Positions 42,025 to 46,568 of a DNA stretch of 60,683 nucleotides are shown in pieces; position 1 is the stretch's first letter; every line of letters begins with the position of its first letter. Source of the DNA: Gordonia polyisoprenivorans NBRC 16320 = JCM 10675 (GTDB lineage Bacteria; Actinomycetota; Actinomycetes; Mycobacteriales; Mycobacteriaceae); the NCBI RefSeq assembly GCF_000241325.1, contig NZ_BAEI01000007.1, forward strand, positions 1 through 60,683, written 5' to 3'. The notes beneath the pieces are model-generated. The model did no database searches and was not told the DNA's origin. It saw only the letters and a list, made by a program, of their open reading frames with translations. The position numbers and the translations under genes are program-made.

Positions 42025-42891
42025 CTACGGAGTGGGGCCCACCGCCGCAGGCAACTCCGGATCGGCGGACCACTGCGACCACGACCCCGGGAACAAGGTG
42101 CCCGAGAACCCGGCGATGGCCAGCGCCGCGAGCTCGTGCGCGGCGTTGATTCCCGATCCGCAGTACGCGATGACCTGCGCATTCTCGGCGACCCCGGCCT
42201 CGGTGAACCGTTCGCGCAGCTGCTCGGGCGACAGGAACCGCCCGTCGTCGGCGAGATTCCCGGCCGTCGGGACGCTGACGGCGCCGGGCACATGTCCGGC
42301 GCGGGGATCCATCGGTTCGGTCTCCCCGCGATACCGTTCGCCGGCGCGGGCATCGAGGATGACAACGTCGTCGCGGCCGTCCCGGATCTCCGAGGACAGT
42401 CGCGCGACCTCGTCGAGCGACACCTGCGGGAGTTCGCCGCCGGTCAGGGTGACGGTGCCGGGACGCGCGGCGGTGTCGCCGGCGGAGACACGCATCCCGG
42501 CCGAGCGCCAGGCGTCGAGCCCGCCGTCGAGCATCCTGACGTCGGTGTGCCCGGCCCAGGTCAGCAACCACCATGCGCGGGCCGCCGCCAGGTTGCCGAT
42601 GTCGTCGTAGACCACCACCGGCGACAAGTCGTCCACACCCCAGCGTCGCGCGGCGTCCTGCAGGCGATCCGACGACGGCAGCGGATGGCGCCCGAGTTCG
42701 GCCGACGGCGGGTCGGCCAGTTCGGAATCGAGATCGACGTAGACGGCTCCGGGGATGTGGCCCTCCCGATACCGCTCACGCCCATCTGTCCGCCCCAGCG
42801 CCCAGCGGACGTCGAGGATCACCGGCGGACGGTTCGAGAGCATCTCCTCGGTCAGTGCGTCGACGTCGATCAGGTTCTGCGCCATGAACAT
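42025..42891 (-). CDS. Thiosulfate/3-mercaptopyruvate sulfurtransferase (two-domain rhodanese)
   Basis: A 288-residue tandem rhodanese. The N-terminal inactive domain has ILDVRWALG and GHIPGAVYVDLDSEL; the C-terminal catalytic domain has DARAGERYRGETEP and the active-site loop YCGSGINA with the catalytic Cys. Transfers sulfane sulfur from thiosulfate or mercaptopyruvate. It starts directly after the TetR stop (TGA-ATG), so the two are one transcript and GAGGAG in the TetR end is its ribosome-binding site. Confidence 0.9.
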   Translation of the reverse strand: MFMAQNLIDVDALTEEMLSNRPPVILDVRWALGRTDGRERYREGHIPGAVYVDLDSELADPPSAELGRHPLPSSDRLQDAARRWGVDDLSPVVVYDDIGNLAAARAWWLLTWAGHTDVRMLDGGLDAWRSAGMRVSAGDTAARPGTVTLTGGELPQVSLDEVARLSSEIRDGRDDVVILDARAGERYRGETEPMDPRAGHVPGAVSVPTAGNLADDGRFLSPEQLRERFTEAGVAENAQVIAYCGSGINAAHELAALAIAGFSGTLFPGSWSQWSADPELPAAVGPTP

Positions 42892-43527
42892 TCACTCCTC
42901 TGTCGTCGGGGTGGCAGCCGACTCCGTTTCGCCGCCGCGGGCCGCGATGACCGCGGGGGCCATGACCGCAGCGAGGTCGGCGGCGACATCGCGGTCGCTC
43001 TCGGGCGGCATCGCCACGTAACTCAGCGCCATGCGCGTGATCGCCCGCGCGATACACACCGCGTCGTCGTCGGCGAGACCAAGCCACGAGGTGGTGAGCA
43101 TGTCGGTGAGACGCGCGCTCGCGGTCGTGATCAGCGGCGCGGCATCGGTGGTGATCAGCCGCAGCAGATCCGGCTTCGCCTCACCACGCTGCAGCGAGGT
43201 GATGAGCGGGTCGGCCGCGGCCACGGCGAAGAAGGCGGCGAATGCATCGTGCAATGCGCCATGGATATCGTGTGGGCGCTCGGCAACCGTCGACGCGACG
43301 ATGCCGGCGAATTCCGTGGCCAAGCGCATCGCATACGCCTGCGCCAGTCCGTGGCGGGAACCGAACTCGTTGTACACGGTTTGCCGTCCGACGCCCGATT
43401 TCCGGGCGACGTCGGCCATCGTGATCGACGGCCAATCCTTTTCGACCAGCAGATCTCGCAGACCGTCGAGCAGAGTTGTGCGCAGGAGCGCCCTACTCGC
43501 CTCCGCATAGGTCTGTCGGGTGGTCAC
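42892..43527 (-). CDS. TetR-family transcriptional regulator
   Basis: A 211-residue TetR regulator: N-terminal helix-turn-helix ITMADVARKSGVGRQTVYNEFGSRHGL (about 35-62), then an all-helical ligand domain. Divergent from the CYP153-reductase gene, with a perfect 9-bp-arm palindrome in the 210-bp gap, so it most likely represses that gene and itself until a hydrocarbon or related ligand appears. It is coupled to the rhodanese gene downstream. Confidence 0.88.
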   Translation of the reverse strand: MTTRQTYAEASRALLRTTLLDGLRDLLVEKDWPSITMADVARKSGVGRQTVYNEFGSRHGLAQAYAMRLATEFAGIVASTVAERPHDIHGALHDAFAAFFAVAAADPLITSLQRGEAKPDLLRLITTDAAPLITTASARLTDMLTTSWLGLADDDAVCIARAITRMALSYVAMPPESDRDVAADLAAVMAPAVIAARGGETESAATPTTEE

Positions 43528-43657: not shown

Positions 43658-43682
43658 AAGACAAATAATCACAATTTGTCTT
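43658..43682. promoter_or_regulatory. Palindromic operator between TetR and CYP153 fusion
   Basis: AAGACAAAT, seven bases, ATTTGTCTT: a perfect inverted repeat with 9-bp arms. A further half-site GAGACAAAT lies at 43688-43696. The AT-rich site stands out from the GC-rich surroundings and lies 56 bp upstream of the P450 start, where the TetR regulator is expected to bind. Confidence 0.75.
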
Positions 43683-43737
43683 CGTAAGAGACAAATACTC
43701 TGCTATTGTCGAGCAACACCGAAACCCAGCGAAAGCG

Positions 43738-46206
43738 ATGGTTGTCATGCGCGTTGTCGATCGACTCATCAACAAAGCCCAGGTAGTGGTACCGATGGAA
43801 CGCCAAATCCAGGGTCTGCATCTGTTCCAGCGCGCCAAACGGCTGATGGTGGACGATGGCCAGCCACGCTTCGAGGCGTCGGAAATCCCCGACGTTGCGG
43901 ACTTGGATCTCACCGAGATCGACGTCAGCAATCCGTTCTTGTGGCGTCAAGGGCAGTGGCAGCCCTACTTCGCGAGGCTGCGAGACGAAGCGCCCGTGCA
44001 CTTTCGGGCTGACAGCGCTTTCGGTCCGTTCTGGTCGGTGACCCGCTACGACGACATCGTCTCCGTCGACAAGGACTTTCAGACCTTCTCTGCCGAACCC
44101 CAGATCATTCTCGGCGCGCCGCCCGAAGGACTCGATATCGAGATGTTCATCGCGATGGACCCGCCGCGCCACGACCAGCAACGCGCCGCGGTTCAGGGCG
44201 TTGTCGCTCCGCAGAATCTGGAGGAGATGGAGGGCCTGATTCGTTCGCGGGTCCAGGATGTCCTCGACGCGCTGCCGGTGGGTGAGCCGTTCGACTGGGT
44301 CGACCGGGTCAGTGTCGAGCTGACCTCACGGATGCTGGCCACACTGCTGGACTTCCCGTACGAGGACCGACGCAAGCTGGTGCAGTGGACCGACTTGGTG
44401 GCCACCAGTTCATCGGCCACCGGCGGGGTCAACAACACCGATGAGATCTATCGGGGCGCCGCCGACATGGCGCGGAGTTTCAGCGCACTGTGGCACGACA
44501 AGGCGGCTCGTCTGGCGGCCGGCGAGAAGCCCGGGTACGACCTGATCACACTCATGCAGCTCTCCGAAGACACCAAGGACCTGATCAACCGCCCGATGGA
44601 GTTCCTCGGCAACCTCGTGTTGCTGGTCGTGGGTGGTAACGACACCACACGCAACTCGATGACCGGCGGTGTGCTCGCGCTCAACCAGTTCCCGGAACAG
44701 TTCGACCGCCTTCGCACCAACCCGGGGCTCGTGCCGAAGCTGGTCCACGAGATCCTTCGATGGCAGACCCCGCTGGCCTACATGCGTCGGGTCGCCACCC
44801 GCGACACCGTGCTGAACGGCCAGTTCATCCGTCAGGGCGACAAGGTCGTGATGTGGTACGCCTCGGCGAATCGGGACGAGCGCACGTTCGACGACCCGGA
44901 CAGCTTTGTGATCGACCGGCGCAACGCCCGCCACCACCTTGCCTTCGGGATCGGCACGCACCGCTGCATGGGGAGCCGGCTGGCGGAGTTGCAGTTGCGC
45001 ATTCTGTGGGAGGAGCTGCTGACCCGATTCGACGACATCGAGGTCCTCGCGGAGCCGGAGCGCGTGCAGTCGAACTTCGTGCGGGGTTACAGCTCGATGA
45101 TGGTGCGCCTCACCCCGATCGGCGGTCGGCGGCCGGAGCCGGGCCCCTACCGCACACATCTACGCGAGGCCGGCGACAACGACTCTGCAGCACGCAGTTC
45201 GGCGGCACGCAGTTCAGTTCCCATGCCCGCACGGCCATCTCGTGGAAACCGTGGTGCAGCAATGCAGACGCTCGATCTGCGGGTGGCCCGCCGGCGGACC
45301 GCGGCCGAGGGTGTCGTCGAGCTCACCCTGACCGATCCCGCCGGCGGTTCGCTACCCGCCTGGACTCCGGGCTCGCACGTCGAGCTCCTGTTGCGTCCGG
45401 GGATGTCGAAGCACTACTCCCTGTGCGGAAATCCCGCAGACCGATCGTCATGGACTGTCGCGGTTCTGCGTGAACGCAACGGCCGCGGTGGATCCGAGTT
45501 CGTTCACGACGAGCTGACCGAGGGGTCGCACCTGCAGGTCAGGGGTCCCCGCAACCACTTCGCGCTCGTCGGCTCACCGCGATATCAGTTCATCGCCGGC
45601 GGCATCGGCATCACCCCGATACGCACCATGATCGCGGCGGCTCAGGCGGAAGGGGCCGAATGGAACCTGTTGTACTGCGGTCGGTCTCGGGACTCAATGG
45701 CATTTCTCGACGAACTGGGGGCCGACGATCGGGTGACGGTCTGGGCCGGTGACGAACACGGCGGGCGGTTCGATCTCGATGCGATCCTCGGCGAGCCGCG
45801 GGCCGACACCCTGGTCTACTGCTGCGGACCCGCCGCGCTGATGGACGCCATCGAGGAGAAGTGCGCAGCATGGCCGGACGGAAGCCTGCACCTCGAGCGG
45901 TTCGTGGCCGCGACCGGCGACGCACCCGAGGGCGCACTCGACTCCTTCGAGGTCGAGTGCGCGGTCTCGGGGGTGACTGTCACGGTCGAACAGGGCACGA
46001 CGATTTTCGCCGCGGTCGAGGAGGCCGGTGTCGACGTCATCGGGTCGTGCATGGAAGGAATCTGCGGTACATGTGAGGCCGATGTTCTCGGCGGCGCCCC
46101 CGACCATCGCGACTCCGTGCTGTCACGTGCCGAACGCGAACGCGGCGACACGGTCATGACCTGCGTCTCCCGATCACTCTCGCCGAAGCTGGTGCTCGAC
46201 CTGTAG
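43738..46206 (+). CDS. cyp153A: CYP153A-type P450 fused to a phthalate-dioxygenase-type reductase
   Basis: An 822-residue two-part protein in one uninterrupted frame. Residues 1-470 are a CYP153A alkane/fatty-acid terminal hydroxylase: VVPMERQIQGLHLFQRAKRL, IDVSNPFLWRQGQWQPYF, MFIAMDPPRHDQQRAAVQG, I-helix GGNDTTRNSMTGG, TPLAYMRRVATRD, and heme Cys410 in FGIGTHRCMGSRLAELQ. A Ser/Ala/Pro-rich linker (about 475-508) leads to a reductase from Met509: FMN-binding YSLCG region, NAD-binding GGIGITPIRTM near 620, and a C-terminal [2Fe-2S] plant-type cluster C771-x4-C-x2-C and Cys near 809. CYP153 enzymes normally need separate ferredoxin and reductase; this one should be self-sufficient. Controlled by the divergent TetR. 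Confidence 0.93.
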   Translation: MVVMRVVDRLINKAQVVVPMERQIQGLHLFQRAKRLMVDDGQPRFEASEIPDVADLDLTEIDVSNPFLWRQGQWQPYFARLRDEAPVHFRADSAFGPFWSVTRYDDIVSVDKDFQTFSAEPQIILGAPPEGLDIEMFIAMDPPRHDQQRAAVQGVVAPQNLEEMEGLIRSRVQDVLDALPVGEPFDWVDRVSVELTSRMLATLLDFPYEDRRKLVQWTDLVATSSSATGGVNNTDEIYRGAADMARSFSALWHDKAARLAAGEKPGYDLITLMQLSEDTKDLINRPMEFLGNLVLLVVGGNDTTRNSMTGGVLALNQFPEQFDRLRTNPGLVPKLVHEILRWQTPLAYMRRVATRDTVLNGQFIRQGDKVVMWYASANRDERTFDDPDSFVIDRRNARHHLAFGIGTHRCMGSRLAELQLRILWEELLTRFDDIEVLAEPERVQSNFVRGYSSMMVRLTPIGGRRPEPGPYRTHLREAGDNDSAARSSAARSSVPMPARPSRGNRGAAMQTLDLRVARRRTAAEGVVELTLTDPAGGSLPAWTPGSHVELLLRPGMSKHYSLCGNPADRSSWTVAVLRERNGRGGSEFVHDELTEGSHLQVRGPRNHFALVGSPRYQFIAGGIGITPIRTMIAAAQAEGAEWNLLYCGRSRDSMAFLDELGADDRVTVWAGDEHGGRFDLDAILGEPRADTLVYCCGPAALMDAIEEKCAAWPDGSLHLERFVAATGDAPEGALDSFEVECAVSGVTVTVEQGTTIFAAVEEAGVDVIGSCMEGICGTCEADVLGGAPDHRDSVLSRAERERGDTVMTCVSRSLSPKLVLDL

Positions 46207-46276: not shown

Positions 46277-46568
46277 ATGAAGCAGGCTGACGGCGAGTAC
46301 TACGTGACCGCGCAAGAAGTGGCGGCGTTCGAGGAATCGCGGCAAGCGCTACTGGTACATGCGGGAGGACGGATCGACCGACCTCTACCTCGACGATCTC
46401 GAGATCACCCACGGCTGGCCGATCTTCCTGATGGAACGCGACGCCGCATGGTTCGCCAAGTGGGACGGCGACTACGAGAAGGCCGTCGAGACCGATCTGA
46501 ACCCGCACCTCATCAAGAACTTCGAGGAACTCCTGACGCAGGGCAACTGGCCGCACGACCAGGACTGA
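46277..46568 (+). pseudogene. Small hypothetical gene, apparently frameshifted
   Basis: Two overlapping frames look like halves of one 97-residue protein: MKQADGEYYVTAQEVAAFEES (from 46277) and RGKRYWYMREDGSTDLYLDD up to TQGNWPHDQD (ending 46568). They join if the sequence TCGCGGC at about 46338-46344 were two bases longer (an extra CG). The second half alone could start at ATG 46359 but has no ribosome-binding site. No domain is recognised. Whether it is a mutation or an assembly error is open. Confidence 0.45.

Follow-up and report, generated by a model that had tools for sequence, protein, structure and literature searches.

The window analyzed in this work, a stretch of 60,683 nucleotides from Gordonia polyisoprenivorans NBRC 16320 = JCM 10675 [NCBI RefSeq: GCF_000241325.1, contig NZ_BAEI01000007.1], carries a gene in which a cytochrome P450 domain of the CYP153A type is continued through a linker by a complete PDR/VanB-type reductase (PFOR). 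The features of the locus are collected in Table 1.

Table 1 Organization of the CYP153A-PFOR locus (positions in the window)
Feature	Position	Strand	Remarks
TetR-family regulator (TetR_N, TetR_C_35)	42892..43527	-	divergent from the fusion gene
Operator-like half-sites AGACAAAT / ATTTGTCT, 7-base gaps	43658..43710	.	promoter region; first three computed, to 43696
CYP153A-PFOR fusion gene, 822 amino acids + stop	43738..46206	+	open frame, ATG to TAG
CYP153A heme domain, residues 1-461	43738..45120	+	
Heme-ligating Cys410 codon (FGIGTHRCMG)	44965..44967	+	C in 112/112 aligned sequences
Linker, residues 462-508	45121..45261	+	predicted helix 470-492, then disordered Ser/Ala/Arg/Pro-rich part
PDR/VanB-type reductase (PFOR): FMN, NAD(P) and [2Fe-2S] parts, residues 509-822	45262..46203	+	
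Met509 codon, supposed former start	45262..45264	+	M in 2/112, not conserved
[2Fe-2S] cysteines C771, C776, C779, C809	46048..46164	+	each C in 112/112

The heme domain contains the motifs GGNDTT at residue 299, EILR at 338-341 and FGIGTHRC with Cys410, and the signatures typical for P450 enzymes, i.e. the heme-Cys loop (C410), ExxR (E338/R341) and the acid-alcohol pair (D302/T303), are present in all 112 aligned sequences. Members of a CYP subfamily share more than 55% identity; the heme domain has 305 of 454 aligned residues (67%) in common with the Marinobacter CYP153A structure 5fyf, which places it in the CYP153A subfamily. In the reductase part the motifs KHYS (558), GGIGITP (621), CCGP (695) and C771-x4-C776-x2-C779 followed by Cys809 have been recognized. 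The Pfam scores exceeded the gathering thresholds for p450, NAD_binding_1 and Fer2. The order of FMN, NAD and [2Fe-2S] domains with the C-x4-C-x2-C-xn-C pattern is that of PDR/VanB-type reductases, and 2pia and 7ylr were matched over nearly the full length. As a whole the protein has the class VII layout, a single frame encoding first the heme domain and then the FMN, NAD(P) and [2Fe-2S] domains, and among the 60 chains listed in the structure-sequence comparison only the self-sufficient P450s 6kbh and 6laa matched both domains. The original prediction of a natural CYP153A joined in frame to a full reductase has thus been borne out by the 822-residue frame, the complete set of motifs and the many relatives described below. 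The proposed Ser/Ala-rich linker between the domains has also been found, approximately at residues 484-508 as read from the translation.

The AlphaFold2 model, whose mean pLDDT rose from 64.7 with the first alignment to 83.9 with a more diverse one, represents the domains well individually; residues 492-505 of the linker have pLDDT under 50. The predicted packing of the heme domain against the reductase domain is not reliable, because pTM was 0.63 and the whole-chain matches gave rmsd values of 19.5 Å against 6kbh and 16.5 Å against 6laa. The VIA-align comparison tested mostly the heme part, and none of its 50 rows was a CYP116B chain.

A search of protein databases, in which relatives were counted as clusters at 90% identity, found 1400 relatives among the 7987 best candidates scored. 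Heme, nucleotide and cluster signatures occurred together in 113 of the best 120 listed; six of the other seven have the heme signature only and one lacks the cluster motif. In the alignment of the query with 111 relatives D302, T303, E338, R341, C410, G621, C771, C776, C779 and C809 were identical in 112/112 sequences. Mean identity of the 111 aligned relatives to the query amounted to 81% in the heme domain, 26% in the linker and 70% in the reductase, and their linkers range from 38 residues shorter to 13 residues longer. Invariant key residues combined with a freely varying linker are what would be expected if selection acts on a functional enzyme of two parts.

Source names of the carriers include Gordonia, Williamsia, Rhodococcus, Skermania, Tsukamurella, Nocardioides and Solirubrobacteraceae and, outside the phylum, Solimonas fluminis. 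The fusion is present in 8 of 59 genomes of the host genus (own included), four of which also encode a standalone CYP153A. In evenly sampled genomes searched with a strict threshold it was detected in 2 of 121 from the order and 2 of 118 from the class, own included, so its distribution across order and class is patchy. The Solimonas fluminis protein (P0057, Gammaproteobacteria) is 70% identical and lies beside a Gordonia fusion in both trees described below; horizontal transfer is a possible reading of this placement.

CYP153A hydroxylases of class I, e.g. CYP153A of Marinobacter aquaeolei (5fyf/5fyg), consist of one domain, and genes for a ferredoxin and a ferredoxin reductase usually lie nearby; the fusion, by comparison, has its reductase in the same chain and of another type. 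In a scan of genome contigs the best 80 of 578 loci were kept, comprising 70 standalone CYP153A loci and 10 fusions (the window locus is outside these 10), and at most 7 kb on each side was searched by tblastn with the ferredoxin and ferredoxin reductase of a standard CYP153A operon (L021). A ferredoxin gene was found in 64 and a ferredoxin reductase gene in 51 of the 70 standalone loci within these best 80 of 578, and one standalone locus had the ferredoxin reductase alone. Neither gene was detected within that distance at any of the 10 fusion loci, and the separate partner genes nearby that mark a class I three-component system were thus missing from the fusion loci examined. Both partners were likewise missing from L017, L019 and L020 (74%), the closest standalone loci of the best 80 of 578, as well as from L064 and from L060, where the contig is cut at the CYP153 gene. 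The host genome also encodes a ferredoxin - CYP153A - ferredoxin reductase set accompanied by an AraC-like gene as judged by eye (G000:C79, L002). The heme domain of this CYP153A is 66% identical to that of the fusion. Beside the class I set, the fusion may be used for chains of a different length or under different conditions.

Phylogenetic trees were constructed for the two domains with hand-selected rows. The heme tree (70 rows) comprised 32 of the 112 fusion proteins (query included), 3 fusion loci, 20 standalone proteins and 15 standalone loci; all 35 fusions fell on one side of a branch supported at 100/99. In the reductase tree (53 rows: 23 fusion proteins, 3 loci, 20 of the 120 listed reductases, 4 reductases of the host genome, 6kbh, 6laa and 2pia) the 26 fusions were separated by a branch supported at 100/100, with 6kbh and 6laa outside the fusion clade. 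Because the fusions cluster in both trees, a single origin is the simplest reading, and the fused reductase represents a lineage distinct from CYP116B. The comparison made in the original prediction with CYP116B thus applies to the order of the domains and fails for the descent of the reductase.

The first trees did not include the short sequences P0164-P0174 (reductase side) and P0115, P0117-P0119 and P0124 (heme side). When they were added later, together with P0112 and P0113, all short sequences were placed within the fusion clade, from which every other reductase remained separated at 100/100. Five of the 11 short reductase sequences are taken as cut fusions, because they start with a CYP153A tail. 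The remaining six, of reductase length, and P0119 (461 amino acids, full heme length) come from contigs of 1.5 to 3.4 kb and could be unfused adjacent pairs, later splits, products of wrong starts or cut fusions. P0119 ends and P0165 starts near the domain border; P0115, P0117, P0118, P0119 and P0165 would be broken, misread, cut or split copies.

Two rival explanations concern the nature of the locus itself. An assembly error or a read-through would have joined two genes by a stop lost in this assembly only; that P0115, P0117 and P0118 cease to follow the fusion within the linker, much as a frameshift would cause, could be taken in its favor. The same unbroken frame is, however, found in a 97% copy from a one-contig genome (G031), in Gordonia oryzae (L009; 97% heme identity, and probably the same strain as G027 because the fusion proteins are identical) and in the 111 aligned relatives. 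An accident of this assembly has therefore been ruled out on the strength of 113 fused relatives among the 120 listed, the one-contig copy and the ten invariant residues, and its probability is practically negligible. It is also very improbable that the protein represents a divergent CYP116B-type enzyme and not a CYP153. Its domain order equals that of 6kbh and 6laa, but the heme domain scored 704 bits against a CYP153A chain, compared with 373 bits for the whole protein against 6kbh, and in the tree 6kbh and 6laa are separated from the reductase, which groups with standalone VanB-type ones. Since the best heme matches are CYP153 chains and the reductase lies outside the 6kbh/6laa lineage, membership in CYP116B was rejected.

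Unfused relatives of the reductase have been found in operons of Rieske oxygenases. A search of 151 family genomes with a standalone reductase gave 35 places, from which 30 loci were taken, 19 with fusions and 11 with unfused reductases. Nine of the latter (L118-L126) are 56-61% identical to the window reductase, which is up to 65% identical to other standalone reductases of the tree. A gene for a VanA-like Rieske protein lies downstream of the unfused reductase in 8 of the 11 loci and a P450 gene upstream in 5, both being present in 4; L144 and L147 have a VanA-like gene upstream of the reductase, with an identity of 31-32%. The P450 and reductase genes overlap by ATGA in L119 and L126 and are approximately 10 bases apart in L125. 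These upstream P450s are only 35-37% identical to CYP153A, with CYP125 and CYP124 types as the best solved relatives, and no such P450 was found in wider stretches around L118, L120, L122 and L123. The reductases adjoining VanA-like genes (57-61% identical) are separate proteins, unlike the fusion. In the host genome a P450 (27% identical to the query heme domain) and a PFOR (49%) are encoded as separate neighbors at G000:C71:21641-23834 (L004).

Of 35 fusion loci, 14 also have a VanA-like gene (VanA_C and Rieske domains) immediately after the fusion; several of the loci probably represent a single strain present in two collections, as their proteins are identical. At the three junctions inspected the two genes overlap by ATGA. 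A single change on the tree accounts for the presence of the VanA-like gene, and the order of its gain or loss at the base of the fusion clade is weakly supported (61/83). No VanA-like gene was found after the fusion in the window or in its clade, and the host genome has no close VanA-like gene, the best match being 40% identical over half of the query. The usual iron motif of Rieske oxygenases is D-x2-H-x4-H. In the VanA-like proteins of L118-L123, L125-L130, L091, L092, L095, L015, L016 and L052 its first histidine is replaced by N (D in L118), and the same altered proteins share EHYLD just before the motif (20 rows aligned), so that their iron site may be rearranged. The more distant VanA-like proteins of L144 and L147 keep the usual motif.

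The intergenic region upstream of the fusion contains, besides the three computed half-sites, a fourth one, ATTGTC, noticed by eye at 43705-43710. A comparison of four related loci, two of which have the same sequence, shows that the half-sites are largely kept while several bases between them differ. The divergent TetR protein is a candidate repressor of the fusion gene, and its position together with the repeated AGACAAAT half-sites suggests that the fusion gene is under its own control. The TetR gene is found in the same place in L009 and L164; among 19 loci these two near relatives and the window locus were the only ones with this divergent TetR, and regulation conserved throughout the family was not seen in that set, in which each of the pairs L014/L163 and L052/L160 apparently represents one strain counted twice. 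At 12 of the 19 loci another TetR gene, convergent, stands behind the fusion or the VanA-like gene, an arrangement that suggests a single ancestral module, which either does or does not include the Rieske gene; this convergent TetR gene was not found beside the unfused reductase operons examined. Within 42025-43527 of the window the TetR gene is adjacent to a rhodanese-domain gene on the minus strand, and the two may be co-transcribed. Downstream of the fusion a stretch of 97 amino acids (46277-46567), present also in L164, gave no Pfam match. No alkane-catabolism gene was identified adjoining the fusion among the window neighbors inspected.

As to its origin, an orphan CYP153A probably became part of a shared-reductase operon and so gave rise to the fusion; this is supported by the lack of ferredoxin at L017, L019 and L020, by unfused reductases encoded in P450/VanA operons and by the VanA-like gene kept at 14 of 35 fusions. 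A CYP153A lineage would have lost its neighboring ferredoxin genes, then replaced the P450 of a P450-reductase-Rieske operon and been joined to the reductase encoded there, after which the clade of the window would have lost the Rieske gene, leaving the reductase domain to the heme alone. How the genes were joined had been predicted as the loss of a stop between neighbors, with Met509 as the relic start of the reductase. The old start codon was rejected, as methionine occupies this column in only 2 of the 112 aligned sequences. The other part of that proposal may hold in a changed form: a CYP153A gene adjoining a separate close PFOR was not found among the 70 standalone loci (L047, L059 and L064 have a weak PFOR-like match of 25-30%), but stop loss after CYP153A had taken the P450 place is possible, because overlapping P450-PFOR gene pairs exist with a different P450. 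Extended to function, this scheme leads to a tentative model, in which a self-sufficient CYP153A was made by splicing onto an operon reductase; in the sister lineages the fused reductase would feed the heme in cis and the Rieske enzyme in trans, and the clade of the window, having lost the Rieske partner, would possess a dedicated hydroxylase.

Our preferred explanation, with a probability of roughly 0.8, is that the CYP153A domain, the linker and the reductase make up one enzyme with the operon origin outlined above, which most likely uses NAD(P)H to hydroxylate the chain ends of alkanes or fatty acids in a self-sufficient manner. By analogy with the families of the two parts, NAD(P)H would reduce FMN in the reductase domain, electrons would travel one at a time over the [2Fe-2S] cluster to the heme bound by Cys410, and splitting of O2 at this heme would hydroxylate the chain end. 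It could be argued that the fused reductase serves mainly other oxygenases in trans, e.g. VanA-like Rieske enzymes, with the heme poorly reduced in cis. The VanA-like genes directly behind 14 of the 35 fusions, the ATGA overlaps at the inspected junctions and the existence of PFOR-VanA pairs without any fusion point in this direction; yet in the window and its host genome, which have no close VanA-like gene, the protein keeps all tested reductase and heme residues, and such a role in trans seems improbable. Somewhat unlikely, though a more serious concern, is a self-sufficient enzyme acting on a substrate other than alkanes or fatty acids, such as an aromatic methyl group or a terpenoid. The sister-lineage operons hold an oxygenase of a type named after an aromatic demethylase, and CYP153A13 is reported to be active on aromatic compounds (PMC12416667). 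Set against this are the 67% identity to a CYP153A acting on fatty acids and alkanes and the conservation of the segments around the heme.

Several known systems are close to the protein. With CYP116B enzymes (class VII; 6laa is CYP116B46, and 6kbh is of this type) it shares the order of heme, FMN/NAD(P) and [2Fe-2S] domains in one chain, and differs from them by a heme domain of another family and by a reductase only 45% (6kbh) and 42% (6laa) identical to theirs. Laboratory-built fusions of CYP153A with the reductase of P450RhF or CYP116B3, described in PMC3815936, have the same overall design, whereas the window fusion is natural and has a VanB-type reductase and its own linker. The AlkB-rubredoxin fusions reported from Gram-positive bacteria (PMC3604635) likewise join a natural alkane hydroxylase to an electron carrier, but the enzyme is an unrelated integral membrane protein and the carrier comes without a reductase. 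LumU of Nocardioides simplex is another single-chain P450 with a reductase. In the titles, abstract openings and passages of the open-licence literature no natural CYP153-PFOR fusion was found, and the CYP153 fusions described there were engineered only. Public database names for relatives include 'cytochrome P450/oxidoreductase'. An earlier published mention of a natural CYP153 fusion is possible, since Nie et al. 2014 reportedly described gene fusions among alkB and CYP153 genes. Within the open-licence literature searched, what seems unreported is that these proteins, whose sequences are already public, are CYP153A fusions of natural origin and that they are linked to Rieske operons.

Terminal C-H hydroxylation makes CYP153 enzymes attractive, and because they depend on separate partners, foreign reductases have been fused to them in the laboratory. 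A natural, conserved CYP153A-PFOR family, which looks like a second origin of the P450-PFOR design apart from CYP116B, offers ready linkers, matched domains and a test case for the evolution of coupling, in which the proposed steps of orphan P450, shared-reductase operon, fusion and loss of the second oxygenase are open to test. For the bacteria that carry it, the single-chain fusion likely frees the oxidation of alkanes or fatty acids from the separate partner proteins usual for CYP153.
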